A DNA stretch of 64,000 bases, taken from assembly GCF_000317675.1 (NCBI RefSeq), contig NC_019776.1, forward strand, positions 2,976,001 through 3,040,000, read 5' to 3'. Numbering within the stretch: position 1 is the first letter of the stretch; each line of letters opens with the position of its first letter. Shown here piece by piece: positions 45,479 through 63,354 of the stretch. The stretch comes from Cyanobacterium aponinum PCC 10605. Its GTDB lineage: Bacteria; Cyanobacteriota; Cyanobacteriia; Cyanobacteriales; Cyanobacteriaceae. The position numbers and the translations under genes are program-made. The notes under the pieces are model-generated. The model ran no database searches. It was not told where the DNA came from and saw only the letters and a program-made list of their open reading frames with translations.

Positions 45479-45779
45479 AGATATTGCTTAATTTTCCAAA
45501 TTTTTATTCATTCTTAATATTTTATATTTTATTTTTAACTTTTATTAAGATATAGTTCAGGTTTTACTATTTCAAAACTTCAGATTTACAGGAGAAATAG
45601 GGTGTTGGGGTATTGGGGGTTAGTTAGGGTTCGGAGGTGTCAGGTGTCGGGTTTCAGGTGAGGAGGAGATGAGGGGATGGGGGGAGAGGTGGCAGGTATC
45701 AGGTGGCAGGTGTCAGGTTTAAGGGAGTAATGAGTAACCAGTAACGAGTAATTATCAACTATTCACTATTCACTATTCA
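45479..45779. other. Intergenic repeat tract
   Basis: No gene. GTCAGGT/GGCAGGT heptamers, GATGAGGGGATGGGG units (about 45657-45690) and TATTCACTATTCACT units (45759-45782). The tandem TATTCAC array runs into the stop codon of the next gene. Confidence 0.65.
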
Positions 45780-48107: not shown

Positions 48108-48262
48108 TTTTTTTACTCTATAGTTGTAAAATAAGAATTATAACTTAGAAATAAACCCATAGAGATCCTAATTGAAAAGCCCATAAAGAACTTATCTTAT
48201 TTTTACTTGTTAATATCGATAGATATTTTGATAACTTATTCAGCAGAATATTCACTACTAAT

Positions 48263-48949
48263 CTAAGAAGGAGAGTCTTTTAACACATAACCAACTCCTC
48301 TGACAGTATGAATTAAACGAGGGGATTGATTGACTTCTAATTTGAGTCTTAATGCCCGAATATAAACCTCAATAATATTTGATTCTCCCATAAAGTCAAA
48401 ATCCCAGACATTTTCGATAATTTGATTTCTACTTAATACTTGACGGGGATGTCTTAATAAATATTCTAATAGATCAAATTCTTTTGCCGTTAGTTCAATC
48501 GAATCCTTACTCCTGAATACTTCTCTAGTTAAGAGATTCAGTTTTAAGTCTGCAAATTGGAGAATTTCTGAGGTATCATTTACTTGACTACTACGCAGAC
48601 GAGCATTAATTCTTGCCAACAATTCTTCAATACTAAAAGGTTTGGTTAAATAATCATCTGCACCAGAATTTAAGCCCAAAACTCGATCGGGAATTTCATC
48701 TCTGGCAGTTAATAATATAATAGGGATTTTAATACCCGTTTTGCGCAATCGCAAACAGACATCTAACCCGGAGATTCTCGGTAACATCCAATCAAGGATA
48801 ATTAAATCAGGAGGAAATTCTCTCACTTTTTCTAAGGCTTCCATGCCATCATCAGCAGTCGCCACTTCATAGCCTTCTAATTTTAATTCAGTGACGATAA
48901 ATTGAGATAGTCTTTGATCATCTTCCACTACAAGAATTGAATTAGTCAT
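48263..48949 (-). CDS. OmpR-family response regulator (pair with histidine kinase)
   Basis: 228 aa from the ATG at 48949; a longer frame to 48988 overlaps the kinase. The receiver (1-118) has LVVEDDQRL, LIILDWMLPRISG (phospho-Asp), LLTARDE and TKPFS. The DNA-binding winged helix (about 130-225) ends LIHTVRGVGYVLKD. The kinase stop and this start are separated by one base, giving translational coupling. Target genes are not evident. Confidence 0.93.
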   Translation of the reverse strand: MTNSILVVEDDQRLSQFIVTELKLEGYEVATADDGMEALEKVREFPPDLIILDWMLPRISGLDVCLRLRKTGIKIPIILLTARDEIPDRVLGLNSGADDYLTKPFSIEELLARINARLRSSQVNDTSEILQFADLKLNLLTREVFRSKDSIELTAKEFDLLEYLLRHPRQVLSRNQIIENVWDFDFMGESNIIEVYIRALRLKLEVNQSPRLIHTVRGVGYVLKDSPS

Positions 48950-48950
48950 C

Positions 48951-50390
48951 TTATTCTCCCCATAAAGGTAAACTGATTGTAAAAACACTGCCTTCTTGAG
49001 GTTTCGATCGCACTTTTATTGTACCTTCCATTCCTTCAATCATACCCTTAGCAAGGGCTAATCCCAACCCTGTGCCATCCCGTGAGCGAGTCATACCATC
49101 ATCTGCACGGTAAAATCTTTCAAAGATTCGTTGTTGGTGTGCTAAAGAAATACCGATACCGTAATCACGAATATGAATTAGGGCATTGGGAAAACACTTC
49201 TCTAAAATAATATCAATGGGTTGAGGGGGAGAAGAATATTTAAGGGCATTATCGACTAAATTAATTAAAACCTGTTGCAGACGATCTTGATCCGCACAGG
49301 TAATGACATCCTCATCAGTAATTATTAAATTGATGGTGCGATCGGTTACTTTTTGACTCATTTGGGCTACTTCTGTCACCAAAGTATTTAGCATCAAAGG
49401 TTGACAGTGAAAATGTAAATTACCACTATCTGCACGGGCTAAATCCAATAAATCTTCTAACATTCTAATAGTTCTTTCCGTTTCCGCCGTAGCAGTTTCT
49501 AAAGCCTGAATTTGATGGGTGCTTAAATTATCACTCCTGCGCAGTAAGCTTTGTAAATAACCTAAAACAATGGTTAAAGGAGTGCGTAACTCATGGGAAA
49601 CATTACCAACGAATTGCCGTTGTTGCTCCCAAGAAGCAGAAAGACGAAATAACATCTCATTAAAGGCTTGTGCTAGTCCAATTATCTCTTGAGGTGCTTG
49701 ATTTAGGGTTAATTTTGCCCCACTTAAATCATCTGCTTTGATAGTAGAGGCAACCCGACTCATTTTTTTTAAAGGTTTTAAACCAGTGCTAATAGTATAT
49801 GATATGGCAATAACTAAAACTGTGACTGTAACAATACTAATAAAGAATAAGCGCCAGAGACTAAAGTTTAATTTTTGTTGATCAAGGGTTATATCCTGAG
49901 AAAGATAGAGTTTTCCCACCATATCCCCATTAACAATCAAAGGAGTACCACACAAGACAATATCACGCCCATTAAATCTAACAACTTGTGGTTTAGTTGG
50001 TATTTGTTGAGTATTTTCTACCGCTTGAAATTCTACCAGAGAATTATTAAGAGACGAAGATTGTCCTAATAGTTGTCCTTGGGGATTTTTTACCCATACC
50101 ATTAAGTTTGATGTTTCTACCCGTGAAATGGCTTTTTCGATAACAGTTTCAAGGGATTCGGCTTCATTATAAACCTCTAATTGTTCTGGGAAACGCATTG
50201 CTATATATTCTAAGGTTTGTTTATGGGCGGCTACTAAATTCTGTTCCATTTGCCACCCTGCCCAAAAAGCCACACTTCCTAAACCTATCACCGATAATAT
50301 CACTAATTCTAAGGTTAATTGAAATTGCAAAGATGAGGAGGGTATTTTTATTTTTTTTATGATTTTTTGTAGCTGTCTAATTAGTTTCAT
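48951..50390 (-). CDS. Membrane sensor histidine kinase
   Basis: 479 aa. Helices at about 27-48 and 183-203 frame a ~135-residue extracytoplasmic sensor domain without a recognised fold; a HAMP domain follows (205-258). Phospho-His lies in GNVSHELRTPLTI (H-box), the N-box is LINLVDNALKYSS, and G-boxes are IRDYGIGIS and GTGLGLALAKG. Upstream gene of a two-component operon with the regulator at 48263-48949. Stimulus unknown. Confidence 0.94.
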   Translation of the reverse strand: MKLIRQLQKIIKKIKIPSSSLQFQLTLELVILSVIGLGSVAFWAGWQMEQNLVAAHKQTLEYIAMRFPEQLEVYNEAESLETVIEKAISRVETSNLMVWVKNPQGQLLGQSSSLNNSLVEFQAVENTQQIPTKPQVVRFNGRDIVLCGTPLIVNGDMVGKLYLSQDITLDQQKLNFSLWRLFFISIVTVTVLVIAISYTISTGLKPLKKMSRVASTIKADDLSGAKLTLNQAPQEIIGLAQAFNEMLFRLSASWEQQRQFVGNVSHELRTPLTIVLGYLQSLLRRSDNLSTHQIQALETATAETERTIRMLEDLLDLARADSGNLHFHCQPLMLNTLVTEVAQMSQKVTDRTINLIITDEDVITCADQDRLQQVLINLVDNALKYSSPPQPIDIILEKCFPNALIHIRDYGIGISLAHQQRIFERFYRADDGMTRSRDGTGLGLALAKGMIEGMEGTIKVRSKPQEGSVFTISLPLWGE

Positions 50391-50527
50391 AATTTTAGTC
50401 TTTACATAGATACTTCTTTGCTTCCTTTAACCCAAAAACCACATATCGAAAAATACCTTTGCGTCTTTGCGGGAAAAATAGAAAAACAAGATTTTGGGGG
50501 AAATAAAAAACATTTGTACAGAAAATA

Positions 50528-50725
50528 TCACCACATTTCATCATCTAATCCATCAGCAATTAACGCATCCCATAAATTATCAATTTCGTTATTAGCTTCC
50601 CTATAGGCATTTTCTAAATTTTTTTCATGGGGTAATATTAATTTTTTTTGCACGTCATCTGTATTAGAGTTATTAAAAGTTGATGGCGGTGTTTTCTCTG
50701 GCATTGAATTCAAATCGTCTGTCAT
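50528..50725 (-). CDS. Small acidic protein overlapping cupin gene
   Basis: 65 aa, acidic and Asn-rich (TPPSTFNNSNTDDVQ; NLWDALIADGLDDEMW). Family not recognised. The ATG at 50725 has GGAG nine bases upstream, which supports translation. It overlaps the 3' end of the cysteine-dioxygenase-like gene by 53 nt in another frame, so the two are probably coupled. A start at 50704 is possible but without SD. Confidence 0.5.
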   Translation of the reverse strand: MTDDLNSMPEKTPPSTFNNSNTDDVQKKLILPHEKNLENAYREANNEIDNLWDALIADGLDDEMW

Positions 50726-51284
50726 AGTCTGTTTCTCCGTATAAGTTAAAACTGATAGTTGGTTGATTTCCCATCGCTTCGATATGATGGATAGCGTCTG
50801 CTGAAAAACAGAGAATATCTCCTTCGGTGAGGATTTTTTCCCCTACTTTTTCGATTTTGTCAGGTTGATTAGGTTGAGGATTCCTACGCCAAAAGGTGTT
50901 TTTTTCTTTGCCTTCTAATAATGCCACGATACCCCAACAGCCATGATTATGAATTGGTGACACCGTGCCTCCTGCCCATGCTACTAACTGCACGGTTAAG
51001 GGAAAGGAAGGCTCATCGTATAATGTCATTATCTCCCACCCTGTGTCTGGATTTGGTTCTAGCATGGATAAATATAACCAAGGGGATTCATTTAATAATT
51101 TTCTCATTAAAGGTGCGATCGCACCTAATCTTTTCTCGTCATCTTGGATTGTTTCGAGGATATCTTCTAAATCTGTCAAAAAACGATAAAGACGATACAC
51201 AGAAGCAGTTTTAGAGGGTATAGAGAGAATTTTTAAAGGAAGGCACACCCCATTGTTATCCACTAACCAATCTTGCTTTTTCAT
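50673..51284 (-). CDS. Cysteine dioxygenase-like cupin
   Basis: 203 aa from ATG at 51284 (a TTG at 51326 would extend it). The cupin metal site is PIHNHGCWGIVALLEG (HxH) and a later His in DAIHHIEAMG; NTFWRR and ISFNLYGETDYDRRFEF complete the family pattern. Probable Fe(II) thiol dioxygenase; cysteine is likely but 3-mercaptopropionate is possible. No Cys-Tyr crosslink Cys is evident. Overlaps the small acidic ORF. Confidence 0.84.
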   Translation of the reverse strand: MKKQDWLVDNNGVCLPLKILSIPSKTASVYRLYRFLTDLEDILETIQDDEKRLGAIAPLMRKLLNESPWLYLSMLEPNPDTGWEIMTLYDEPSFPLTVQLVAWAGGTVSPIHNHGCWGIVALLEGKEKNTFWRRNPQPNQPDKIEKVGEKILTEGDILCFSADAIHHIEAMGNQPTISFNLYGETDYDRRFEFNARENTAINF

Positions 51285-51540
51285 ATATAGAAAATAAATA
51301 TATTTATAATTATTATAAGTAAGCAAAATGAGGGGAAAATAAAAACAAGATTAATCGTTTATGAATCCCGTAAAACAGGCATTTATAAATTCCTTAAAAT
51401 AAGCATCTTGCCTGTAAAATCTAACAGCAAAAATCATCAACTATAGCAGTGACCAAGTTGTTTAGGACGCTTTGAGGATTCTTAACGTTCATTCAGAATG
51501 ATAATCAGAGTTTTAAAAATGTTCTAATTAAAATTTATAT

Positions 51541-51571
51541 AATCTGTATCTTAAATTCATGTTCTCCTCAT
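51541..51571 (+). repeat. 31-bp upstream repeat, copy 1
   Basis: AATCTGTATCTTAAATTCAT plus GTTCTCCTCAT. 29 of 31 bases match 54817-54847. Lies about 120 bp before the GT2 start. Confidence 0.75.
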
Positions 51572-51638
51572 CTTCATGGGTTTTAATCAAATTATTGTTA
51601 AAAATATCTATTAAATATTGATCGCAATGACAATAATA

Positions 51639-51658
51639 AGGGCTAAAGCCCTTACTAC
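51639..51658. repeat. AGGGCT hairpin repeat, copy 1
   Basis: AGGGCTAAAGCCCTTACTAC; a stem GGGCT/AGCCC. Copy 2 at 56326-56345 differs at one base. Confidence 0.75.
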
Positions 51659-51693
51659 GAAACAGATAATACATAATTGATTAGTAAGAGAAA

Positions 51694-53958
51694 ATGCTCC
51701 AGCCATCTCAAATATTGCAACAAAATTCCTTAAAAAATAAGCTCAAACCCCAAACTGCAACTCTTGTTTTAGTTAGTATCATTCTTTTATCCGCAATCAT
51801 TGTCGCTTTATGGGCAACGGGAAATGGTGAAATCGCTACTATTTTTACCTATTTTAATTCTCTCCAAGAAAATCCACCGATGTGGTTAGAAACTCCCATG
51901 ATTATGGGTAAATTTCTGTTAACTCCTACCATCGTGATGTTTTTATCTGTCTGGTTAATTACGGTTATTTCTCCTCAACCTCGTTTTTGGTCTAGGACAT
52001 TCGTAATTCTGATATTATGGGGATTATTGATTCGTTATTTATTGTGGCGCTCTTTATCCAGTTTAAACCTTAGTGATCCATTAAATGGTACTTTTAGTTT
52101 ACTTTTATTCTTTTTAGAATTATTAGTTTTATTTAGTAGTAGTTTACAATTACTTCTCATGCTTCGGGTTAAAAATCGCCGTCGAGAAGCAGATTTAGCT
52201 CAACAAAGTGCGATCGCACATCAATTTAAACCTACTGTTGATATTTTAATACCTACCTATGATGAATCTATCGAAATTTTACGACGAACATTAATTGGTT
52301 GTCAGGCGATAGATTATGAATTGAAAACTATTTATTTACTTGATGATACAAAAAGACCAGAAATAGCCAAATTAGCTCAAGAATTAGGTTGTGAGTATCG
52401 TACTCGTCCTAACAATCTTTATGCTAAAGCAGGAAATCTCAATTATGCAATCCCCCAGACAACGGGAGAATTTATCGTTGTTTTCGATGCTGATTTTATT
52501 CCCACCCGTAATTTTCTCCAACGCACCCTCGGCTTTTTTCAAGATTCCCAAGTTGCCCTTGTGCAAACACCCCAAAACTTCTATAATTTAGATCCGATCG
52601 CACGCAATCTTGGTTTAGAGAATGTATTAACCCCAGAAGAAGAAGTTTTTTACCGTCAGATTGAACCCATCAAAGACGGTGCGGGGAGTGTAGTTTGTTC
52701 AGGAACTTCTTTTGTGGTGCGGCGTAGAGCCTTAGAAGAAATAGGGGGATTTGTCACAGATTCTTTAAGTGAAGATTATTTTACAGGGGTTCGTCTTTCT
52801 GCTCAAGGTTATCGTTTAATATACTTAGATGAAAAACTAAGTGCAGGATTAGCCGCAGAAAATATTTCCGCCCATGCCACTCAGCGTTTACGTTGGGCAA
52901 GAGGAACACTACAAGCCTTTTTTATTGATTCTAATCCTTTAACCATTAAGGGATTAAGTTGGCTACAAAGATTGGCACATTTAGAAGGGTTATTGCACTG
53001 GTTTACCAGTATTTCTCAGGTTGTCTTTTTAATGATGCCTCTTGCCTATGGATTTTTAAATGTGATTCCCATTCGCGCTGATGTTTCAGATTTTCTTTAT
53101 TTTTTCCTACCCTACTATATTACCCAAATTACCGTTTTCTCTTGGCTTAATCATCATTCTCGTTCAGCAATTTTATCCAATGTTTATGGTTTAGTTCTTG
53201 CTTTTCCCCTTGCTATTACCGTAATTCAAGTGATGTTGAATCCATTTTCTAAAGGTTTTAAAGTTACTCCTAAAGGAACGATACAAAATAAATATCATTT
53301 TAACTGGGGTTTAGCATTTCCGTTGTTAATCTTATTTATTCTTAATGCCGTTAGTCTTTGGTTAAATTTGTGTATTTGCATTATTGCCGAAGTCAATACT
53401 CCCGCAGATTTGTTGTATCAGTATCAGGGAATTAACCTGAGTTGGATTTGGGGTATCTATAATCTGATTGTGTTAGGAGTTGCTTTATTAATTCTCATCG
53501 ATGTTCCTAATCACAGTTTATACCATTGGTTTCAATTACGGCGTGTTGTAAAATTAACCCTCGAATCTGGACAAGTATTTTGGGGCGTAACCAATAACAT
53601 TTCTGAAGTGGGCGTAGAAGTGGCTTTAACTCAAAAGGAATTTCCCCGCATTAGTCGTGGTGATGCTTTACCTCTAAAAATTGAATTACAGGAAGAATCA
53701 ATTAATTTAACAGGAATGGTTATTCACACCGAGTTTGATGGTGAGTTTCCTTTAGTTCAAATTTGCTTTGAGAAAATGACTTTAACACAACTGAGACAGT
53801 TAATTATCTTACTTTATTGTCGTCCGGGGCAATGGCAATCTAAAAAAACTCCAGGGGAATTTCAATCTATTGGCTTGTTACTGAAAACCTTAATTAAGCC
53901 TAAGTTTATTTTTGAGCGTGAACCAAAAACTAATTCCCTCATTGTTTCTCAAATATAA
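51694..53958 (+). CDS. Cellulose-synthase-like glycosyltransferase with PilZ domain (BcsA type)
   Basis: 754 aa. N-terminal membrane helices (about 20-155) are followed by a GT2 domain with PTYDESIEIL, LDDTKRPEIA, VFDADFIPT (DxD), a TSFVVRR segment, SEDYFTGVRL (TED-like) and TQRLRWARGTLQ (QxxRW). Four to five helices follow, then a PilZ domain (about 625-735) with NNISEVGVEV. The RxxxR element reads RRVVK, with Lys for the second Arg. Probable c-di-GMP-controlled beta-glucan synthesis and secretion. No bcsB or bcsZ nearby; a CBM2 gene is at the window end. Confidence 0.87.
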   Translation: MLQPSQILQQNSLKNKLKPQTATLVLVSIILLSAIIVALWATGNGEIATIFTYFNSLQENPPMWLETPMIMGKFLLTPTIVMFLSVWLITVISPQPRFWSRTFVILILWGLLIRYLLWRSLSSLNLSDPLNGTFSLLLFFLELLVLFSSSLQLLLMLRVKNRRREADLAQQSAIAHQFKPTVDILIPTYDESIEILRRTLIGCQAIDYELKTIYLLDDTKRPEIAKLAQELGCEYRTRPNNLYAKAGNLNYAIPQTTGEFIVVFDADFIPTRNFLQRTLGFFQDSQVALVQTPQNFYNLDPIARNLGLENVLTPEEEVFYRQIEPIKDGAGSVVCSGTSFVVRRRALEEIGGFVTDSLSEDYFTGVRLSAQGYRLIYLDEKLSAGLAAENISAHATQRLRWARGTLQAFFIDSNPLTIKGLSWLQRLAHLEGLLHWFTSISQVVFLMMPLAYGFLNVIPIRADVSDFLYFFLPYYITQITVFSWLNHHSRSAILSNVYGLVLAFPLAITVIQVMLNPFSKGFKVTPKGTIQNKYHFNWGLAFPLLILFILNAVSLWLNLCICIIAEVNTPADLLYQYQGINLSWIWGIYNLIVLGVALLILIDVPNHSLYHWFQLRRVVKLTLESGQVFWGVTNNISEVGVEVALTQKEFPRISRGDALPLKIELQEESINLTGMVIHTEFDGEFPLVQICFEKMTLTQLRQLIILLYCRPGQWQSKKTPGEFQSIGLLLKTLIKPKFIFEREPKTNSLIVSQI

Positions 53959-54014
53959 CTAATTTAAAAGGAAAATCAATCGAATAATTAAAAAATATTT
54001 ATTGATAAATCGTT

Positions 54015-54677
54015 ATGACTTTAGAACAATTTAGCCTCCTAATTCATCCTTTTTTCGTCATTGTGACAGTTTTTCCTTTACTTGGTATCGTTTTCTATTT
54101 TGCGTGGGAAACTTTTCAACGACATTTACAAATAAAAAGAGGTGAAAAAAGTAAAATACCTCCATCCGTTGGTCTTAATCATGTTACCATTGGCAAAATA
54201 CTATCAAGTACCGTTTTTTTTGTTACTTTAATTGGATTAGCACAACCTCTAATCACCAAAAATATTCTTAAAAATGAACTGTGGGCAACAGATTTTTTTC
54301 TGTTTATTTTTATTATCTTAATCTTTCTTTTTTCCATAGTTTCTTTTATTTTCTTATACCATGCTAGGGTAAAATTATGGCGTGGAATTTTCGCCACTTT
54401 AAGCGGTATGGGAATAGTTATTTTAGGAAGTCAAGAAGGAATATTTCGCCGTAGTAATGAATGGTATTGGTCTCATTATTACTATGGAATAACAATCTGT
54501 TTACTAATGATATTTTCTGTAGCGATTATTAATAATATTTATCGAGATAAATCTCAAAAATGGCGCAATATACATATTATTTTAAACTGTTTAGCATTAC
54601 TTCTGTTTATCGGACAAGGCTTTACTGGTAGCAGAGACTTATTTGAAATCGGTTTATGGACGTCTCCGCCAAGTTGA
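54015..54677 (+). CDS. DUF4079 multi-pass membrane protein
   Basis: 220 aa with six hydrophobic helices. ALLIHP-like start (FSLLIHPFFVIVTVFPLLG), a HARVKLWRGIFATLSGMGIV core and NEWYWSHYYYGI with His residues fit DUF4079, found mostly in phototrophs and possibly heme-binding like cytochrome b561 (inference). It follows the GT2 gene by 56 bp on the same strand and ends before a hairpin terminator. Confidence 0.74.
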   Translation: MTLEQFSLLIHPFFVIVTVFPLLGIVFYFAWETFQRHLQIKRGEKSKIPPSVGLNHVTIGKILSSTVFFVTLIGLAQPLITKNILKNELWATDFFLFIFIILIFLFSIVSFIFLYHARVKLWRGIFATLSGMGIVILGSQEGIFRRSNEWYWSHYYYGITICLLMIFSVAIINNIYRDKSQKWRNIHIILNCLALLLFIGQGFTGSRDLFEIGLWTSPPS

Positions 54678-54748
54678 GTTTCATTACTTTTTATATTAAG
54701 TCTTTCGCATGACAAATATAAGGGTAAAAATCATAATTGTTGTACCGT

Positions 54749-54774
54749 AATACAGGCATCTTGCCTGTATTTTT
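54749..54774 (+). terminator. Rho-independent terminator after DUF4079 gene
   Basis: AATACAGGCA, loop TCT, TGCCTGTATT, then T-run: a perfect 10-bp stem. Confidence 0.75.
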
Positions 54775-54816
54775 AGTTGGTTTCTATTGAATCTTTATAA
54801 ACCAATAATTTTATCT

Positions 54817-54847
54817 AATCTCTATCTTAAATTCATCTTCTCCTCAT
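54817..54847 (+). repeat. 31-bp upstream repeat, copy 2
   Basis: AATCTCTATCTTAAATTCAT plus CTTCTCCTCAT, 57 bp before the first Cys-repeat thioredoxin start. May be promoter-linked. Confidence 0.75.
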
Positions 54848-54903
54848 TTTGACTCTTTTTAATAGACACAGAAGAAAAAATTATTAACTCAGGAGATTCG
54901 ATC

Positions 54904-55503
54904 GTGTTTAAGAAATCCGCATCATTTTGGTTAACTCTTTCTCTCACTAGCCTTGTTATCCCTGTTTCTTTAGTGGCTAACAACTTGAGGGTTTCAGCCT
55001 TAGAAAATAATACTGTTATTGCTCAAGCTAACCCTTGTGCTGGTAAAAATCCCTGTGCTAGTAACAATCCTTGTGCTGGTAAAAACCCTTGTGCTGGTAA
55101 AAACCCTTGTGCTGGTAACAATCCTTGTGCTGGTAAATCTGCTAGAAATGTAGGTGGTCCTTTAGCTAAAGAATTACAAGGAAAACCCGTTGTTGTCGAT
55201 ATTTACGCTAGTTGGTGTCCTGCCTGTAAAAATATAGCACCTACTTTATCTCAATTGAAAAAACAATATGGGAATAAAGCCCATTTCGTTGTATTTGACG
55301 TTAGCGATAAAGCTAAAGCTCGTCAAGCAGAAGCAAGGGCAAAACAATTGGGTTTAGAAGACTTTTTCAACGCTAATAAGTCTCAGACAGGTAGTGTTAC
55401 CATCGTTGATCCTAAAACCGGAGATATTCTCAGTCAGTATCGCAACAATAATAAACTAAGTGATTATACGTCCGTACTCAATACAGCTATTTCTCAAAAA
55501 TAA
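54904..55503 (+). CDS. Exported thioredoxin-fold protein with six NPCAGK repeats
   Basis: 199 aa, GTG start after AGGAGATTCGATC. A signal peptide (1-32) is followed by six hexapeptides of type NPCA(G/S)(K/N) at residues 43-78, giving six evenly spaced Cys. A thioredoxin domain (about 86-197) follows with YASWCPACKN (active site C105-C108). The cis-Pro region is replaced by GSVTIVDP. Likely periplasmic or lumenal. The Cys repeat could bind soft metals or form disulfides (inference). Paralogue of the next gene. Confidence 0.84.
   Translation: MFKKSASFWLTLSLTSLVIPVSLVANNLRVSALENNTVIAQANPCAGKNPCASNNPCAGKNPCAGKNPCAGNNPCAGKSARNVGGPLAKELQGKPVVVDIYASWCPACKNIAPTLSQLKKQYGNKAHFVVFDVSDKAKARQAEARAKQLGLEDFFNANKSQTGSVTIVDPKTGDILSQYRNNNKLSDYTSVLNTAISQK
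55030..55137 (+). repeat. Intragenic 18-bp tandem repeat, six units
   Basis: Units AACCCTTGTGCTGGTAAA with single-base variation, encoding NPCAGK-type hexapeptides. Confidence 0.92.
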
Positions 55504-55652
55504 GTGAATGGTGAGTATTATCATCTCAATCACATTCCTCCGAAAATTTTAATCAAAAAAATTCAATTCAAAAATCTTAGTACTGTTGTTCAAAGTCTGA
55601 GGAATTTTGTCAAAAACGTATCTCAGACTTTTTCCAATACATCTTAAAGCCC

Positions 55653-56282
55653 ATGAAAATTAGATTTTTTTCCTTTGTATCTATAGTTTCCCTTCTGAGT
55701 ATCGCTAGTTTAACAGGGTGCGTCAATCCAAATGTCAGTCAAACTAATTCAGCAACTGAAACTCAAGAGATACAGAATAACCCCTGTGCTAGTAAAAACC
55801 CTTGCGCTGGTAAAAACCCTTGTGCTGGTAAAAACCCTTGTGCTGGTAAAAACCCTTGTGCTGGTAAAAACCCTTGTGCTGGTAAAAACCCTTGTGCTAG
55901 TAAAAACCCTTGTGCTGGTAAAGCCGGAACTGTGGGCGCATCCTTAGCTCAAGAATTACAAGGAAAGCCCGTTCTTGTTGATGTTTATGCTAGTTGGTGT
56001 CCCGCTTGTAAAAATATTGCTCTGACTCTTTCGCAACTAGAGAAAGATTATGCTGATAAGGTTCATTTTGTTGTCTTTGACATGAGTGATAAATCTACCA
56101 CTGCTCAAGCTGAAGCTAAAGCTCAAGAATTAGGTTTAGCAAAATTTTTAGCAGAAAACAAAACTCAAACGGGAATGCTAACAATTATTGAACCATCTAC
56201 TGGGGTAATTCTCGCTCAACATCGTAATAACCCGAATATTGAAGACTATCAAAGTGTTTTGGATAAAGCAATTAGTCAATAA
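55653..56282 (+). CDS. Lipoprotein thioredoxin-fold protein with eight NPCAGK repeats
   Basis: 209 aa. A signal peptide ending in lipobox LTGC (lipidated C23) is followed by eight NPCA(G/S)K hexapeptides at residues 43-90 and a thioredoxin domain (about 96-208) with YASWCPACKN (C116-C119). It is membrane-anchored, whereas its paralogue upstream is predicted to be soluble. The thioredoxin domains are clearly homologous. The repeat DNA is nearly perfect, pointing to recent unit gain. Downstream is CcdA, the expected electron donor for such exported thioredoxins. Confidence 0.86.
   Translation: MKIRFFSFVSIVSLLSIASLTGCVNPNVSQTNSATETQEIQNNPCASKNPCAGKNPCAGKNPCAGKNPCAGKNPCAGKNPCASKNPCAGKAGTVGASLAQELQGKPVLVDVYASWCPACKNIALTLSQLEKDYADKVHFVVFDMSDKSTTAQAEAKAQELGLAKFLAENKTQTGMLTIIEPSTGVILAQHRNNPNIEDYQSVLDKAISQ
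55779..55922 (+). repeat. Intragenic 18-bp tandem repeat, eight units
   Basis: Near-identical AACCCTTGTGCTGGTAAA units; only the AGT (Ser) variants in units 1 and 7, and a few silent changes, break identity. Confidence 0.93.
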
Positions 56283-56325
56283 TTTTTTTACTTAGTATTA
56301 GACATCAACCAAATTTGGAAAAAGG

Positions 56326-56345
56326 AGGGCTGAAGCCCTTACTAC
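56326..56345. repeat. AGGGCT hairpin repeat, copy 2
   Basis: AGGGCTGAAGCCCTTACTAC between the lipoprotein and ccdA; 19 of 20 bases match 51639-51658. Could attenuate transcription between the genes. Confidence 0.75.
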
Positions 56346-56411
56346 AAAACCAGAAACGAATCTTTTTAACAGAATTCTATTGTCGTTTTAATTTTAGGAA
56401 GTTTTCTCATC

Positions 56412-57272
56412 ATGACTCAAATTCAAAAAATTCCCCCTGATGGAAAGGAGAAAATCAAGTCTTCTCCTTCTCATAATACTAAAAAATTTCTCTTTTATCT
56501 CGGATTGGGTTTAATCGCCTTAATCGTCGTTCTCACTTTAGGCCCTGTGATTAGTCATCCCATTGAGAAACTTATTTCTTTGGTGGAAAATCGTTATCAA
56601 GAATGGTTTGAGCAACAGGATACCGCTAATCCTTTAATTTTAATCACCCTTGCTTTTCTTGGTGGTTTGATTGCTAGTGTTTCTCCTTGTATCCTTGCCT
56701 TACTCCCCGTTAACCTCAGTTATATCGGTACTTTGAAAATTAAATCCCGTTGGGATGCTTTTAAAAAAGCTGGTTTATTTGTACTAGGCTCGGTAGTAAT
56801 TTTAAGTTTATTCGGTTTAGTTTCCTCCTTTGCCGGGGCGGTAATGGTGGAATATCGAGGCTATATTAACATCGTTGTCGGTTTAATTATGGCAGTAATG
56901 GGCTTATGGTTATTGGGGGTTATAAAAATCAATCTGCCGGAAACAGAGTTAAATTTGCCTAAAGCAGGTCCTTTTGGGGTGGGTTTAACCTTTGCTTTGG
57001 TGAGTTCTCCTTGTGCTAGTCCTGTGTTGTTTGCAGTGTTAGCGGCGGCGGCGGCTACTGGTTCTCAGGTTTTAGCGACTTTAACTATGGTTAGTTATGC
57101 TCTGGGTTATACCATGTTGATTTTCTTAGCTAGTTTATTTACTGGTTTAGCCAAACAGAGTAATAATTTGTTGAAACATTCTGAGGGTATTATTCGCTTC
57201 GGTAGTGTGGCTTTGTTGATGACAGGTGCTTATTATTTGTTCACTGGTACGAAATGGTTTTTTGGAGGTTAA
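56412..57272 (+). CDS. ccdA: CcdA/DsbD-family thiol transmembrane electron carrier
   Basis: 286 aa. One helix (25-46) and a short loop precede six DsbD-beta-like helices (75-280). The redox pair is C93 in ASVSPCILALLP and C201 in LVSSPCASPVLF, one in each half as expected. It passes reductant from cytosolic thioredoxin to extracytoplasmic thiol proteins and is needed for cytochrome c maturation in phototrophs. Here it sits between two exported thioredoxins and trxB (6 bp to trxB), so it probably serves them. The N-terminal extra helix is unusual. Confidence 0.9.
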   Translation: MTQIQKIPPDGKEKIKSSPSHNTKKFLFYLGLGLIALIVVLTLGPVISHPIEKLISLVENRYQEWFEQQDTANPLILITLAFLGGLIASVSPCILALLPVNLSYIGTLKIKSRWDAFKKAGLFVLGSVVILSLFGLVSSFAGAVMVEYRGYINIVVGLIMAVMGLWLLGVIKINLPETELNLPKAGPFGVGLTFALVSSPCASPVLFAVLAAAAATGSQVLATLTMVSYALGYTMLIFLASLFTGLAKQSNNLLKHSEGIIRFGSVALLMTGAYYLFTGTKWFFGG

Positions 57273-57278
57273 ATAATT

Positions 57279-58241
57279 ATGGTAGAAAATTTAGTGATTA
57301 TCGGATCTGGTCCTGCAGGTTATACGGCGGCGATTTATGCGGGGAGAGCTCAACTTAATCCCCTGATGTTTGAAGGTTTTAGTGTTGGTGGTGTGCCGGG
57401 AGGGCAGTTAATGACTACAACGGAGGTAGAAAATTACCCCGGTTTTGCTCAAGGTATTACTGGACCAAATTTAATGAAGGAAATGAGACAACAGGCTCAA
57501 AGATGGGGTGCAAGGTTAATTAGAGAAGATGTGATTAAGGTTGATTTTTCTCAACGCCCTTTTATTATCACTGCGGATGAAACAGAAGTTCAGGCTTTAG
57601 CTGTAATTATTTGCACTGGGGCAACGGCTAAACGTTTGCATATTCTTGGAGAAGAAGAGTTTTGGAATAATGGTATTTCTGCTTGTGCTATTTGTGATGG
57701 TGCTAGTCCTTTATTTCGTAATACCGAAGTTGCGGTGGTGGGTGGTGGGGATTCGGCGGCGGAAGAAGCTCTTTATTTGACTAAATATGCTTCTTTGGTA
57801 TATCTATTGGTAAGGCGCGATCGCCTCCGTGCTTCTAAAACTATGCAAGAGCGTCTTTTTGCCCATACTCAAATCAAAATCCATTGGCATACTGTGCCAG
57901 TAGTGGCTTATGGGGATGAAATCTTGCAAGGGATTCAAGTGCAAAATACCCTAACAAAAGAAGTTTCTGAGTTTTCTGTGAATGGTTTGTTTTATGCGAT
58001 CGGGCATACTCCTAACACTCGGTTATTTCAAGGGCAAATTACCCTCGACGAGCAAGGTTATATCATCACCAAAGGTAAAAGCACAGCTACCAATGTTGAG
58101 GGAGTTTGGGCGGCAGGGGATGTACAAGATCACCATTATCGCCAAGCTATCACCGCCGCAGGTACTGGGTGTATGGCGGCATTGGAAGCGGAACGTTGGT
58201 TATCTCAAAAGGGTTCTCTTTCTGTTCCTTCTTTAGTTTAG
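57279..58241 (+). CDS. trxB: NADPH-thioredoxin reductase
   Basis: 320 aa flavoprotein. The FAD motif is [14 protein letters not shown], with [17 protein letters not shown] diagnostic for NTR. The active site is C136-A-I-C139, with Ile for the usual Thr of CATC. NADPH is bound by [12 protein letters not shown] and [30 protein letters not shown] ends the FAD domain. Located 6 bp after ccdA and followed by a thioredoxin, forming a complete NADPH to Trx to CcdA chain. Confidence 0.95.
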
Positions 58242-58290
58242 TTAGGTGTTTGTGAACCGTGAAAACTATTTATTGACACTTTATTTTTTT

Positions 58291-58320
58291 GGTGGGTATT
58301 ACCCACCCCACTTATTTTTT
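58291..58320 (+). terminator. Hairpin with T-run between trxB and thioredoxin gene
   Basis: GGTGGGTATTACCCACC then CCACTTATTTTTT. The stem is 7 bp. It lies immediately before the SD (TGGAGG) of the next gene, so it may attenuate rather than fully stop transcription. Confidence 0.6.
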
Positions 58321-58334
58321 TGGAGGTAAGATTT

Positions 58335-58643
58335 ATGTCTAATTTACATGGTGCGGAAGTTTTAACTCAGTTACGTCAAGAATCTGATAAGCCTATTTTG
58401 ATTAAGTTTACTGCTCCTCATTGTCCTTCTTGTGAAACTTTAGCCCCTATTTTGGATGAGTTGAAGCGCGATCGCCCTGATGATTTTGAGTTAGTATCCA
58501 TTGATATGACTGAAGATGTAGAAATTGTGATCGAATTTAAGGTCAGAAGTGCTCCTACTGTGGTTTTACTCAAGGGAAATGAAGTTAAAGAAAAAGTGGC
58601 AGGATTAAAACCAAAAAAATTCTATCAAGATTTAATCAGTTAA
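58335..58643 (+). CDS. Thioredoxin with atypical HCPSC active site
   Basis: 102 aa, cytosolic, single thioredoxin domain. The active site reads FTAPHCPSCETLAPIL (C30, C33): CPSC rather than CGPC, and His in place of the conserved Trp. The cis-Pro loop is kept (VRSAPTVVL). A strong SD, TGGAGG, precedes the ATG; an upstream TTG is ignored. Probably the dedicated substrate of the adjacent reductase and donor to CcdA or the peroxiredoxin-like protein. Confidence 0.88.
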   Translation: MSNLHGAEVLTQLRQESDKPILIKFTAPHCPSCETLAPILDELKRDRPDDFELVSIDMTEDVEIVIEFKVRSAPTVVLLKGNEVKEKVAGLKPKKFYQDLIS

Positions 58644-58757
58644 AACTAGACATGAATTTTTGAAGTTTTACTGAAACTTTTATCATTTTCGAGGAAAGGT
58701 CAGGTTTCTCGCCTGAATTTCTGCTTAACTTTGACCAATAATTCAAACTAAGTAAAT

Positions 58758-60110
58758 ATGTCTTATTTAAAACCCTTAGCAAAAACTGAAGTTTCTGACC
58801 AAGCCCAAGAAATATTAACAGAAATAGAAAATCAATTTGGGATGATTCCCAATCTTTTCAAAACCTACGCTTATTATCCCCCTTTATTAAAAGCTAATTG
58901 GCAAAAATTTCGGGCAACTATGGAAGGGGGAACATTATCACCAAAATTAAAACAAACCATTGCCGTATTAATTTCTCTGGATAATAGTACTGAATATTGC
59001 GTTTGCGCCCATTCTCGTGCCTTATTAAATATGGGAATTAGTGAAGAAGAATTAAAAAATATTCGTCATTTGATTGAGGTTTTAATCATGAGGAAAATTA
59101 TTACAATGACTTTGGGTAGCCTGACTTTTTCAGGGTTTATCTTATTCGGATTGATATATCAAGCAGGAGGAGTGGAAAATTTCAAACTGCGTTATTTCGC
59201 CTTAACAGGTATTTTCCAAGATCAAACTAAGGAATTAGCAGATATTAGAAGCCAAAACTTAAATCCTGCTAAAAATACTCGTATTGAATTAAGTCAGCTT
59301 CTTAATGGTGGGCCTCCTAAAGACGGTATTCCTAGTATTGATAATCCCGTTTTTGATACTTCTCAAACAACTCCTTTTCCCCAAAATGAATTAGTAATTG
59401 GTGTAGTAGTTAATGGGGAAGCTAAAGCCTATCCTTTAGGTATTATGAATTGGCACGAAATCGTTAATGATACCGTAGGCGGTACTAACCTGACAATTAC
59501 CTATTGTCCTTTATGTGATACTATTGTTGCTTTTGAAAGGGGTAATACTACTTTCGGAGTTTCTGGGAAACTCTATCAAAGTTGTCTAGTAATGTTCGAT
59601 CGCAGCGATGATACTCTTTATTCTCAACCTTGGGCATTGGGAGTAGTGGGCAAAAATGTTAATACATCCTTAAATAGAGTAGCTGCCGTTAAAACAACCC
59701 TCGGAGACTGGTTAGAAAAATATCCAGATAGTAAAATTTTAGCGACAAAAACCGGGCATAATCGGGATTATTTTCGTTACCCTTATGGCAGTTATGACAC
59801 TGATACTAAATTGATTTTCCCTGTCAGAAATCAAGAACAACTGCAACTGCATCCAAAAGCCATTGTTAGTTATATTTGGGAAGAAAATCAAAAAACACCC
59901 CATAATAGTTTTTCTGGTATTAGTCAACAATTTCCCCATGAAGAATTAAAAAAATTAGGAGAAAAAACCGTCAAATTTGGCGATCGCACTGTCAAAGCTC
60001 GTTGGGATACCGAATTAAACACAGTGATTGTGGAAGAATTAGACGGAAAAATTATCCCTAGTTCTACTGCTTTTGCCTTCGTTTATCCCAGTTTTTTTGA
60101 TATTTTTTAA
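58758..60110 (+). CDS. AhpD-like domain fused to DUF3179 protein
   Basis: 450 aa. Residues 1-108 resemble a carboxymuconolactone decarboxylase/AhpD domain (FGMIPNLFKTYAYYPPLL, EYCVCAHSRALLNMG). The canonical CxxCxxxH has Thr for the first Cys, though an extra Cys precedes the His. The domain stops short at IRHLIEV, then from M111 a helix (IITMTLGSLTFSGFILFG) and a DUF3179 domain (about 160-445; MNWHEIVNDTVGG, YCPLCDTIVAFER). GAGG lies 8 nt before the internal ATG at 59088, so DUF3179 may also be made alone. A fusion through frame change is possible. Confidence 0.77.
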   Translation: MSYLKPLAKTEVSDQAQEILTEIENQFGMIPNLFKTYAYYPPLLKANWQKFRATMEGGTLSPKLKQTIAVLISLDNSTEYCVCAHSRALLNMGISEEELKNIRHLIEVLIMRKIITMTLGSLTFSGFILFGLIYQAGGVENFKLRYFALTGIFQDQTKELADIRSQNLNPAKNTRIELSQLLNGGPPKDGIPSIDNPVFDTSQTTPFPQNELVIGVVVNGEAKAYPLGIMNWHEIVNDTVGGTNLTITYCPLCDTIVAFERGNTTFGVSGKLYQSCLVMFDRSDDTLYSQPWALGVVGKNVNTSLNRVAAVKTTLGDWLEKYPDSKILATKTGHNRDYFRYPYGSYDTDTKLIFPVRNQEQLQLHPKAIVSYIWEENQKTPHNSFSGISQQFPHEELKKLGEKTVKFGDRTVKARWDTELNTVIVEELDGKIIPSSTAFAFVYPSFFDIF

Positions 60111-60158
60111 TCAAAAATATCGACTTATTTTCAATAATAAAATATAGGTAATTAACCA

Positions 60159-60803
60159 ATGAATTTACAACAAGAATTAAACAATCTTTCCCAACAAATG
60201 CAACAAAAATTATCCGATGATGTTAAAAAAATTATGGCAAAAACTGCTCAAGAATTAATTGACTCTCAAATCAGCGAAAAAGCCTTGAAAAAAGGCGATA
60301 AAATCCCTAGTTTTGCCTTACCTAACAGCACAGGTAAATTAATTAATATCAGTGATATTTTAGCCACATCAAAAGCCGTTATATCTTTTTATCGGGGAGG
60401 TTGGTGTCCATATTGTAACCTCGAATTAAAGGCTTTACAACAGCGATTGCCAGAAATAAAAGAAGCAGGGGCAAATTTAGTGGCTATATCTCCTCAAACT
60501 CCCGACAATTCCCTCTCAACTATTGAAAAACAAGAATTAACCTTTGAAGTTTTAAGCGATGTCGGTAACAATGTGGCGAAAGAATTTGGTTTAGTTTTTA
60601 CAGTACCAGAAATTTTGCGTAATATCTACCACAGTTTTGGCATTGATTTACCTAAATCTAACGGCGATGACTCCTATACCTTACCCCTTCCTGCCACTTA
60701 TATTGTGGATCGAAATGGTACTATTATTTATAGTTTTGTCGATACAGATTATACCAAAAGAGTTGATCCCCAAGAAATTATTGATATTTTAAAAAGTTTG
60801 TAG
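60159..60803 (+). CDS. Peroxiredoxin-like protein (AhpC/TSA)
   Basis: 214 aa. A helical N-terminus (1-40) precedes a thioredoxin-fold AhpC/TSA domain. The redox site is FYRGGWCPYCNLELKALQ (C83-C86), a CxxC type seen in peroxiredoxin-like family proteins. YIVDRNGTIIYSFVDTDYTKR ends the fold. Likely reduces peroxides using the thioredoxin encoded three genes upstream. Followed by a terminator hairpin. Confidence 0.85.
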   Translation: MNLQQELNNLSQQMQQKLSDDVKKIMAKTAQELIDSQISEKALKKGDKIPSFALPNSTGKLINISDILATSKAVISFYRGGWCPYCNLELKALQQRLPEIKEAGANLVAISPQTPDNSLSTIEKQELTFEVLSDVGNNVAKEFGLVFTVPEILRNIYHSFGIDLPKSNGDDSYTLPLPATYIVDRNGTIIYSFVDTDYTKRVDPQEIIDILKSL

Positions 60804-60804
60804 T

Positions 60805-60824
60805 AAGCCTTAAAAGGCTTTTTT
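60805..60824 (+). terminator. Rho-independent terminator after peroxiredoxin-like gene
   Basis: AAGCCT TAAA AGGCTT followed by a T-run; begins 2 bp after the stop. Confidence 0.78.
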
Positions 60825-60907
60825 CAATCTTGTTAAAGGTTAAATCAAGTTCAAGGGTTGAATAATATTCAACCTCGATAAAATACTATTTTGAGTTTAT
60901 TTATTTG

Positions 60908-61246
60908 ATGAATAAAAAGAATAAAAAATTAATTACAATTACTCACATTCCTACAAGCAAAATCATTGCAAGAGGGTTTGAAGGTTGGGGATTTATGGCT
61001 TTTGAGGGAAATTATTATATTCGTCTTAAATACATAAGAACCACTGGTTTTCAATTTAGTTATATACCCAGATTTTGTATTTATAAATTTTTATATGTTT
61101 GGCTACATCTTAAAGTTAAAGATTATAAAGAAGAATTTATTGCTTGGATGTATGTCATTCCTAATCCTCTTTTGCCTTTTATTTGGTTTAGAATTGGATT
61201 ACCTAGAAATCATCACGCTTTAAAAATTGAGATTGAAAATGTCTAA
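60908..61246 (+). CDS. Unknown protein, Tyr/Trp-rich, coupled to metallochaperone
   Basis: 112 aa, basic and aromatic-rich (GWGFMAFEGNYYIRLKYIR; IPNPLLPFIWFRIGLPRNH). Without clear membrane helices, but segments near 65-75 and 90-98 are hydrophobic. Family not recognised. The stop overlaps the next start (ATGTCTAA, 8 nt), so translation is coupled. It starts a new unit after the terminator at 60805-60824. A TTG directly before the ATG is ignored. Confidence 0.66.
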   Translation: MNKKNKKLITITHIPTSKIIARGFEGWGFMAFEGNYYIRLKYIRTTGFQFSYIPRFCIYKFLYVWLHLKVKDYKEEFIAWMYVIPNPLLPFIWFRIGLPRNHHALKIEIENV

Positions 61247-61703
61247 TTGTTTTGTTTGTCAACAAAAAGGAAAGCCAGTCAAAATTGTTACTCTTCAAAA
61301 CTTACTTAAAACTGAAGTATTAGCTAAGTTAAATACAACTCTTAATTACTTTTTTTGTGGTGAAGAAAATTGTCCAATTGTTTATTTTAATCAACAAGGG
61401 CAAATTTTTATCATTGAAGAATTGAAAGTACCTGTTTATCAAAAAGATAAAAGCAAAAATATTCCTGTTTGTTATTGTTTTAATTGGACTAGAGAAAGTA
61501 TTTATCAAAAAATAAAAGAAACTCAACAAAATGATGTGGAAAATTCCATTAAAGCGAAAATGAAAGCTCAACTTTGTGCTTGTGAAATCAAAAATCCTCA
61601 AGGTAGTTGTTGTTTAACTAATGTGCATCAAACTATTGATAATTACTCTTCTGAATTTGAATTACTTAATGATGATGAGATGATAGTATTAACCCAAAAT
61701 TAG
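61239..61703 (+). CDS. CopZ-like Fe-S cluster metallochaperone
   Basis: 154 aa with ten Cys: C4, C7 (NCFVC), C40, C45, C78, C80 (VCYC), C113, C115 (LCAC) and C124, C125. The pattern fits the zinc- and 2Fe-2S-binding N-terminal half of CopZ (KGKPVKIVTLQNLL; YCFNWTRESI). The usual C-terminal HMA copper domain is absent, so copper delivery is uncertain. Coupled to the gene before it and 27 bp ahead of the TauE/SafE permease. Confidence 0.8.
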   Translation: MSNCFVCQQKGKPVKIVTLQNLLKTEVLAKLNTTLNYFFCGEENCPIVYFNQQGQIFIIEELKVPVYQKDKSKNIPVCYCFNWTRESIYQKIKETQQNDVENSIKAKMKAQLCACEIKNPQGSCCLTNVHQTIDNYSSEFELLNDDEMIVLTQN

Positions 61704-61730
61704 AAATTTTGTTATTTTTATGTGATTACG

Positions 61731-62630
61731 ATGAACTTTGAATATTGGTATATGTTTCCTTTTTCCATCGTCATCGCTACTATTGCTATGGCTTCGGGAG
61801 TTGAGGGGGCGACTTTTTTTACTCCGTTATTTATGCTTGTGTTAAAATTACCGCCAGAAGTTGCTATTGGTACTGGTTTAATTACGGAAGTATTTGGTTT
61901 TTCTAGTGGTTTATTTGCTTATATTCGCAAAGGATTAATTGATTTTAAGTTAGGAAAAAAACTGTTAATTGTCACGATTCCTTTAGCTTTAATCGGTACA
62001 TGGTTGGGTAAATTAATCTCCCCTTCTGCTTTAAAAGCGATGTTAGGAGTAGGTTTATTTGTCATCGCCCAAAGTTTTTTGAGTAATCCTGAATCAGAAG
62101 AAATAGAAGTTTTAGACGCAAATATAGCTAGTCATTCGAGAGAAAATCCTCAAACTTGTCTCACTAGCAATGATGGTGAAACTTTTTGTTATACCATAGC
62201 CAATACCACTGAGGGGCGATTACTTTCGGGAATTGGGGCGTTATTTTTAGGCATGGTATCTACGGGGTTAGGGGAGTTAAATGGTTATTTCTTGATTCAA
62301 CGGTGTAAAGTGCCTTCTCAGGTGGCAGTGGCTACCAGTGTTTTTATCGTGGCTATTACTGCTTTAATCGCATCGGTAGGTCATGTATTACAATTTCTTC
62401 AAGCAGGAAATGATGAGTTGATGACAGTATTAAGTTTAGTTATTTTTACTGCACCGGGTGTTTTAATTGGTGCGCAATTTGGTTCAATGGTTGCCTCTAA
62501 ATTGTCTCAAAAATTGTTGGAAAGAAGTATGGGTATTTTGTTTATTATTGTAGGTGCGATCGTACTTTTTGAATTGGCGGTTAAAAATCAAGATTTAATT
62601 TCTAGTTTTATATATATTAGTATGATATAA
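61731..62630 (+). CDS. TauE/SafE-family permease
   Basis: 299 aa, about eight hydrophobic helices. The first half has GVEGATFFTPLFMLVLKLP and ETGLITEVFGF-like motifs (IGTGLITEVFG), the second GMVSTGLGELNGYFLIQ and APGVLIGAQFGSMVAS. A polar loop (about 121-158) splits the halves and has two Cys. The family exports sulfite, sulfoacetate or other sulfur anions, or acts in copper and cytochrome biogenesis (SafE). With the Fe-S metallochaperone next to it, a metal or sulfur role is likely. GTG at 61722 is an alternative start. Confidence 0.86.
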   Translation: MNFEYWYMFPFSIVIATIAMASGVEGATFFTPLFMLVLKLPPEVAIGTGLITEVFGFSSGLFAYIRKGLIDFKLGKKLLIVTIPLALIGTWLGKLISPSALKAMLGVGLFVIAQSFLSNPESEEIEVLDANIASHSRENPQTCLTSNDGETFCYTIANTTEGRLLSGIGALFLGMVSTGLGELNGYFLIQRCKVPSQVAVATSVFIVAITALIASVGHVLQFLQAGNDELMTVLSLVIFTAPGVLIGAQFGSMVASKLSQKLLERSMGILFIIVGAIVLFELAVKNQDLISSFIYISMI

Positions 62631-62957
62631 ATTGTGTGCCATATCTTCTTATTCTCCTGTTTGTTAAGAGAAGTTAAGGGGAAGTAAATACCATAACTGA
62701 AATATAATTGCTGTACAACTGATTTAATGTTTTATTATAACCAAATTCTGAAGGGCAGTTGATCATAACATATTCTAATTAATATAAAATGATTAACTAT
62801 TAAAAAAAAATTAGTTCATATTTTATTAAAGACTAATAAATAGTAAAAAAAATTCATTTAAAATTGTACTTTTGTTCATCATTATTTCATAGTCAGACTC
62901 CACAATAATAAATAAGAAAAGAAACAAGAAAGTATAAATATATAGGAGAAGACGGTC
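62631..62957. other. AT-rich spacer
   Basis: No gene or dispersed repeat seen. AGGAGAAGACGG lies just before the start at 62958. Confidence 0.5.
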
Positions 62958-63302: not shown

Positions 63303-63329
63303 ATAGCTAAATATTTTAAGAAAGTATAG

Positions 63330-63354
63330 GATGGGTAAAAACCCATCTTTTTTT
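63330..63354 (+). terminator. Rho-independent terminator
   Basis: GATGGGT AAAA ACCCATC followed by seven T; ends the small exported protein unit. Confidence 0.85.

Follow-up and report, generated by a model that had tools for sequence, protein, structure and literature searches.

The window, that is, the whole stretch of 64,000 nucleotides of Cyanobacterium aponinum PCC 10605 that was analysed, contains two adjacent, paralogous genes on the + strand, each encoding an array of cysteine-containing repeats joined to a thioredoxin-fold domain. The first gene (54904-55503) has a GTG start and specifies an exported protein of 199 amino acids; the second (55653-56282) specifies a protein of 209 amino acids. 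Judged by inspection, with a signal peptide in each and an LTGC lipobox in the second, both products are probably exported. Array 1 (55030-55137, + strand) lies just past the signal peptide and consists of six 18-bp units that read, in order, NPCAGK, NPCASN, NPCAGK, NPCAGK, NPCAGN and NPCAGK. Array 2 (55779-55922, + strand) has eight such units: NPCASK, five times NPCAGK, NPCASK and NPCAGK. The consensus NPCA[G/S][K/N] holds for both, the spacing is C-x5-C throughout, and each array is N-terminal to a domain with a CPAC motif. A search of the genome for a third array found none. The preliminary description had recognized Cys hexapeptide arrays of 6 and 8 units in paralogous exported thioredoxins, and this account is confirmed. 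Both proteins match PF00085 over the cut-off (E 6.8e-11 for protein 1 and 1.4e-10 for protein 2).

With a period of 18, Tandem Repeats Finder gives 5.8 copies at 88% for array 1 and 8.0 copies at 95% for array 2. The mean pairwise unit identity is 0.90 and 0.948, respectively, which agrees with the earlier remark that the units of the second gene are nearly identical and those of the first more diverged. When synonymous codons were simulated with the codon usage of 17 window genes (5000 runs per array), the mean unit identity was 0.777 for array 1 and 0.790 for array 2, and the observed value was reached in 0/5000 runs for either array. The similarity between the two arrays is 0.914 versus a simulated mean of 0.785, a value that was reached in 0/3000 simulations. 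The thioredoxin domains of the two paralogues use the same codon at only 36 of their 74 shared residues. Since the likeness of the units goes beyond codon usage while the domains have so few codons in common, the units have spread recently within, and probably also between, the two genes. This would fit an exchange between the paralogues as well as the expansion, in parallel, of a unit that both had in common.

The thioredoxin-fold domains themselves (55162-55500 and 55944-56279, both on the + strand) lack a proline just before the strand where thioredoxins have their cis-proline. As judged by sequence, a proline between the conserved Thr and the following strand occurs in 0/49 family members. 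The canonical thioredoxin model TIGR01068 yields 43.6 and 41.1 bits, short of its curated cut-off of 96.8, and both proteins stay below the cut-off of every NCBIfam model that they match. The missing cis-proline and the scores under the canonical cut-off are the reasons for speaking here of a thioredoxin-fold domain and not of a thioredoxin. In a predicted structure of the second protein, built on ten sequences, the block means of the domain exceed a pLDDT of 90 from residue 101; the array blocks, with a pLDDT of 34-44, have the very low model confidence that is usual for disordered parts. Among thioredoxins, the best match of model residues 96-209 is 7d6l (Z 10.8, rmsd 3.1 Å, 97 residues aligned), in agreement with a thioredoxin fold in which the first helix starts with CxxC. 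A Microcoleus MAG encodes an array protein with the thioredoxin domain (L186:6475-7035) in which Arg replaces the Trp before CxxC.

The genes of a complete electron route lie downstream of the array genes, on the same strand: a CcdA/DsbD_TM-type membrane electron transporter (56412-57272; PF02683, E 7.7e-12), a thioredoxin reductase (57279-58241; TIGR01292, 396.8 bits, cut-off 343.45) and a small thioredoxin in which no signal peptide was seen (58320-58643; PF00085, E 1.5e-17). They are followed, again on the + strand, by a gene for an AhpD-like segment joined to DUF3179 (58758-60110), one for an AhpC/TSA-family peroxiredoxin-like protein (60159-60803) and one for a zf_CopZ-domain protein (61239-61703; PF18423, E 3.6e-21). 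Upstream, a glycosyltransferase 2/PilZ protein (51694-53958) and a DUF4079 membrane protein (54015-54677) are encoded on the + strand, and a thiol-dioxygenase-like cupin (50676-51326), a sensor histidine kinase (48954-50390) and an OmpR-type response regulator (48266-48988) on the - strand. In 163 comparison loci, DUF3179 matches (E 1e-5) are present at 25, and relatives of the peroxiredoxin-like protein at 12, of the thioredoxin reductase at 10, of the DUF4079 protein at 5, of the glycosyltransferase at 4 and of the zf_CopZ protein at 4, two of which are the same locus. The AhpD-like segment is partial and is fused to a DUF3179 protein that apparently starts with its own signal sequence; near other arrays, there are separate genes for DUF3179 and for a protein that we label AhpD-like. 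A small exported protein (62958-63302), for which there is no Pfam match, has a conserved counterpart (75% identity, 114 residues) close to the arrays in the nearest relative.

The association of these neighbours with the arrays was assessed in 47 stretches of 7 to 19 kb, namely the window and 46 others that were picked for array or thioredoxin matches and not for their neighbours; the counts are BLAST-based, arrays are counted from 2 units up, several congeners are included and some genomes contribute two stretches. A CcdA gene lies within 37/37 stretches with the thioredoxin domain and within 0/10 array stretches without it. The cupin shows a different distribution: it is found in 17/24 stretches with an array-bearing thioredoxin (at least 2 units), in 8/10 stretches with other arrays and in 0/13 stretches with an array-less thioredoxin, or, for all array stretches taken together, in 25/34 versus 0/13. 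For 17/24 against 0/13, the Fisher p is 2.2e-5; by genus, with the genera counted by hand, the figures are 11/16 against 0/10 (p 7e-4). For three of the seven cupin-less array-thioredoxin stretches (G012, G023 and G051), the cupin gene is located elsewhere in the genome, and the genome of a fourth (G311) has one next to its YHS array; an array-less genome, G044, also has the cupin elsewhere. Among 60 relatives, the cupin gene is present in 10/11 array genomes versus 11/49 array-free ones (p 4e-5), where weak matches without in-frame units and an unrelated NPCT repeat of G046 were dropped; G024 and G041 were scored as array genomes from contig ends, and G037 and G047 from separate searches. From these counts in 47 stretches and 60 relatives, CcdA tracks the thioredoxin domain and the cupin tracks the array whatever its fusion partner, although the cupin also occurs without arrays.

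In a comparison with solved structures, the cupin profile finds cysteine and 3-mercaptopropionate dioxygenases as its nearest matches (E 1.1e-15 for 6xb9 and 1.2e-15 for 3uss). H126, H128 and H180 are invariant in 12/12 cupins, and by analogy these three His would bind iron. The Pfam model CDO_I gives 16.4 bits for one relative of the window cupin, under its cut-off of 23.

Taken from sequence comparison, the arrays may be a rechargeable extracytoplasmic thiol buffer that is fed through CcdA, to which we assign a probability of somewhat less than one half (about 0.47). Redox buffering is favoured as the main task, with soft-metal binding either a part of it or the main rival. Electrons would pass from NADPH to thioredoxin, on to CcdA and then to the CPAC domain, and this domain would maintain the array in reduced form, either in its own chain or in a neighbouring one. 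The array thiols would absorb thiol-reactive stress, be it from oxidants, electrophiles or soft metal ions, for instance Cu(I), and the two-component system, whose sensor has one invariant cysteine, would induce both the array and the thiol-dioxygenase-like cupin. That the CPAC thioredoxin could reduce the array in cis, as had been proposed beforehand, is plausible in view of the strict co-occurrence of CcdA with the thioredoxin domain (37/37 versus 0/10) and of the thioredoxin reductase and thioredoxin in the window. The thioredoxin fold, the low pLDDT of the array blocks, the counts for CcdA and the cupin, the box found before cupin and array or thioredoxin operons, and the occurrence of arrays on several unrelated redox domains (thioredoxin, YHS, one-heme cytochrome and P460-like) or alone were also counted in favour of a thiol buffer. 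Several observations count against it. The thioredoxin-fold domain has work beyond the array, since array-less family members keep CcdA. The 10 array stretches without a thioredoxin hold no apparent recharger of the array. Without a proline at the cis-proline position in 49/49 members, ordinary disulfide reductase activity is not certain, and the cupin gene of the 11 array-free relatives weighs on the same side.

The number of units differs between relatives. On a tree of 49 thioredoxin domains, which was used for unit number and array presence, window protein 1 with 6 units is sister to a 3-unit gene (support 100/89) and window protein 2 with 8 units pairs with a 6-unit gene (support 85/84); both sister genes come from one genome of another genus of the same family. 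Congeners vary in three genera, with 8 versus 5 units (each count including one motif at the lipobox), 4 versus 2, and at least 6 versus 3 and 3; five species of one other genus, by contrast, uniformly have 4. The suggestion that the unit number is changing is therefore borne out between species, yet not in every genus. The sole congener of the window genome in the searches, G001, is without array genes. Over the whole tree, array presence needs 7 changes, at least 4 of which are forced by well-supported branches. Homologous thioredoxin proteins have from 0 to 11 units, and the unit length is 5 (DPCAG), 6 or 7 (NPCASKA) residues. Because the repeat length varies in this manner, a metal lattice of fixed period is unlikely; the periodic six-residue ligand array of the preliminary description finds no support in the form given, and the array is modelled at very low confidence. 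In some relatives, units have lost their cysteine (NPGAAK, NPFAAK and DPLAGK), which counts against a thiol buffer.

It could be argued from these data that the array is a neutral low-complexity spacer, growing and shrinking by slippage, with no function of its own. Variable unit number, homogenized units, the at least four changes of array presence and the cysteine-free units are all what such a spacer would give. We nevertheless consider it distinctly improbable, as NPCA is kept in 14/14 window units while the other positions vary, the motif occurs on unrelated exported domains across several phyla, and the cupin tracks the array.

A kinase like that of the window is encoded in 17/47 stretches, the window included, and an ECF sigma factor in 12/47; both together occur in none. 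Relatives of the kinase above 400 bits are found in 16/46 comparison stretches and relatives of the response regulator above 200 bits in 15/46. One cysteine of the presumed extracytoplasmic part of the kinase is invariant in 17/17. Compared with solved structures, the sensor part reaches a best E of 0.08, too weak to be informative. ECF-type regulation of the window locus was considered and rejected, there being no ECF relative in window positions 45001-64000.

The models matched by the two-component system bear on the possibility of a soft-metal buffer, in which Cu(I), Hg(II) or ions like them are bound by the arrays outside the cytoplasm and the sole role of the thioredoxin domain is to maintain the ligands in reduced form. 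In relatives, both kinase and regulator give matches to heavy-metal models that stay under the cut-off (for one kinase, 237 bits for the heavy-metal sensor model versus a cut-off of 292.55), but the best-scoring models are WalK for a relative's kinase (239) and NblR for a relative's regulator, neither of them a metal model. Cysteine is the only soft ligand within the window units, though the arrays have neither CxC nor CxxC and the spacing ranges from 5 to 7 residues among homologues. The zf_CopZ gene in the window (61239-61703) would also suit metal handling, as would class I flavoproteins, labelled MerA-like by us, in 20 of the 117 array stretches among the matches listed; no metal transporter was seen among those neighbour clusters that were annotated. 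The absence of the cis-proline can be added on the side of metal, because such a proline may prevent metal binding at CxxC, according to PMC2757866. On balance, a buffer devoted to soft metals seems rather unlikely.

The kinase-bearing loci have a common box with an 11-base spacing upstream of the cupin and the array/thioredoxin genes. A Gibbs search of 40 upstream stretches, which left out the near-copies G143, G266, G342 and G387 as well as G366 and one short row, yielded YTCA-N7-YTCA with 9.5-11.2 bits in 4 runs versus 7.6-8.2 bits in 4 shuffled runs. For the box model, 15 sites were taken from the 40 aligned upstream ones on account of their likeness to the motif, and it is thus a selected model. 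When one locus at a time was left out, the region between the cupin (or kinase) and the array/thioredoxin operon held both top-scoring sites of the entire locus in 7/9 loci, and one of them in the remaining 2/9. A set of 21 loci of our own choice, some of them training loci, was then listed with their sites. Outside the training set, both best sites lie between cupin/kinase and the array/thioredoxin operon in L103, L123, L132 and L277-L280, and one of them in L133; in L114, the window's nearest relative, the first array gene is preceded by one site of 19.1 bits. Of these, L103, L123 and L277-L280 share a genus with training loci, which L132, L133 and L114 do not. Four ECF loci (L119, L120, L122 and L128) score at most 13.3 bits. 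L116, with neither regulator, has a 19.5-bit site that does not face the array gene. In L102, sites are located upstream of the cupin and the YHS array, with weaker ones upstream of the thioredoxin array.

In the window, TTCAT-N6-YTCAT occurs in three copies on the + strand (51556, 54832 and 62875) and in none on the other strand. The first is situated in the gap between the cupin and glycosyltransferase genes and the second 72 bases upstream of array gene 1; both have the form TTCAT-N6-CTCAT and belong to two copies of a 57-bp repeat (51531-51587 and 54807-54863) that are 82% identical. It looks as if a promoter region was copied when two genes came between cupin and array. With the full model, the sites at 51556 and 54832 rank only 20th and 21st in the 64 kb, so that the window box is put forward as a suggestion only. 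The third copy, TTCAT-N6-TTCAT before the small exported gene (62958-63302), was discarded, as its half-sites are spaced otherwise in the nearest relative. Dispersed short palindromes of the ACAGGCATCTTGCCTGT and AGGGCTNNAGCCCT types are present in gaps around the locus (51392-51416, 51609-51663, 54749-54771 and 56296-56350).

The arrays are found well beyond this locus. In a phylum sample of 386 genomes, this thioredoxin domain is present at E 1e-18 in 42 genomes, and a match to a free array protein at E 1e-5 in 28, although the latter are not all true arrays. Other array carriers in cyanobacteria have a YHS domain (NF041384) or consist of an array without another domain. A scan of genome contigs for three consecutive units gave at least 117 stretches, which are not an even sample; the taxa among the matches listed (80 titles) are Pseudomonadota, Rokubacteria, cyanobacteria and some others. 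The 163 array reading frames in 117 stretches among the matches listed comprise 77 without another recognized domain within 200 residues, 60 with one CxxCH of a SoxA/TsdA-like kind, 10 P460-like, 8 thioredoxin, 5 YHS and 3 others; these classes were assigned by regular expression, with a Pfam check on one example each for cytochrome and P460, contig ends may hide domains, and a few contigs are present twice. The carriers with a c-type cytochrome or P460-like domain come from outside the cyanobacteria. According to the tables of PMC9312934 and PMC13188914, YHS (NF041384, GxU) and DUF3179 (UxxC/T) are among the families with selenoprotein members, which fits redox-active cysteines and leans to redox. 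DUF6969, named from one representative, is the commonest neighbour family among the matches listed (44/117 stretches, L155 included). A plasmid search with one array cytochrome gave a single match, which covers just the cytochrome portion and does not tell whether arrays travel together with metal resistance. One cyanobacterial genome has a frame of NPCTRT/NPCTHT repeats (L096:1495-1803), a different module as far as seen.

Family databases offer little that fits the repeat. Neither Pfam nor NCBIfam was found to have a model for the array itself; 4/4 proteobacterial free arrays have no NCBIfam match at E 0.1, and Pfam gives sub-cut-off matches only, in 2/3. The match of a free array (L014) to the animal repeat Cementoin (PF10511; 29.1 versus a cut-off of 27 bits) was taken as chance. 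The exact strings NPCAAK, NPCAGK and NPCASK are absent from the literature that was searched.

The cytochromes raise the possibility that the arrays are carriers of persulfide or sulfane sulfur, their thiols holding and passing on sulfur atoms, with SoxA/TsdA-like cytochromes as partners elsewhere. One array cytochrome contains a SoxA-TsdA cytochrome domain (E 1.4e-7) and there are weak SoxA matches, yet the two cytochromes tested score 30 and 24.7 against a SoxA cut-off of 110. The sulfur transporter PF04143 occurs in 14/117 stretches among the matches listed, and the thiol-dioxygenase-like cupin could likewise be connected with sulfur metabolism. TauE, too, is encoded in the window, but its relatives are near only 1/163 comparison loci. 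We regard a sulfur carrier as improbable.

A further possibility is a bufferin-like RiPP, in which an MNIO enzyme turns the cysteines into copper-chelating rings. Exported Cys-repeat precursors of such a kind have been published (PMC12452194), and weak matches to BufA2 are seen for the window proteins (14.2 and 11.6 bits) and a free array (17 bits). None comes near the BufA2 cut-off of 60 bits. MNIO (PF05114) was found in 2/18 array genomes searched, MNIO-like matches lie near 2/163 comparison loci, and the only MNIO gene of the window genome (L259; G000:C1:2274006-2274794) is 0.76 Mb from the arrays. Membership of the bufferins was rejected on these scores and on the position of the MNIO gene, and given its scarcity and distance a modification of this type is very unlikely.

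Returning to the thiol buffer, the array probably represents a thiol module of general use in the envelope, and the two window genes are a clear and recently expanded case of it. The preliminary description saw only one instance of this wider module, and its interpretation was half right: the change of unit number stood and reduction in cis is plausible, whereas the six-residue metal lattice was not supported. In a bolder form, which we consider possible but doubtful, NPCA[AGS]K arrays would serve the envelope of cyanobacteria, Pseudomonadota, Rokubacteria and other bacteria as a general and interchangeable thiol capacitor. They would be charged or discharged by the domain on which they are mounted, be it thioredoxin, YHS, cytochrome c or P460-like, and in cyanobacteria they would be under a single regulon that also produces a thiol dioxygenase. 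If this is true, several phyla have an unrecognized store of thiols in the envelope, made of a simple repeat that can lengthen or shorten by whole units. It would provide a concrete example in which a thioredoxin-fold domain is physically linked to a substrate of its own with many thiols, and a handle on how cyanobacteria protect the extracytoplasmic space against thiol-reactive stress. It would also give a name to many proteins that are now without a family model.

Several known systems resemble the window arrays in certain aspects. Metallothioneins are cysteine-dense, have no fixed fold without metal and bind it through CxC and CxxC metal-thiolate motifs. The window arrays are cysteine-dense as well and would likewise be without a fixed fold when no metal is bound, but come with a signal peptide, a C-x5-C spacing without CxC or CxxC, and a fusion to a redox domain. 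CcdA-dependent exported thioredoxins of the TlpA/ResA/HCF164 type have a thioredoxin fold, a CxxC motif and a CcdA gene nearby. All three of these features are shared by the window proteins, which differ in the Cys array before the domain, in having no Pro at the cis-proline position and in scoring below all NCBIfam cut-offs matched. A Met-rich periplasmic scavenger of hypochlorite, reportedly the subject of work by Melnyk in 2015, is said to be recycled by methionine sulfoxide reductase. It is similar to the array in joining an extracytoplasmic peptide rich in one residue to a dedicated recycling reductase, and the comparison concerns the way of working only: there it is Met with a sulfoxide reductase, here Cys with thioredoxin/CcdA, plus a two-component system.

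The Buf_EGKCG/oxazolin and bufferin precursors, as described in PMC12452194, are also exported and Cys-rich, some of them domain-fused, and one type has a variable number of short repeats. They differ in having EGKCG motifs in 17-residue repeats and an MNIO gene in the cluster; the window arrays have NPCA[AGS]K units, MNIO near 2/163 loci only and a thioredoxin/CcdA route in the window. By analogy, Cys- or Met-rich envelope buffers are a known kind, and the arrays described here would seem to be a variant of it.
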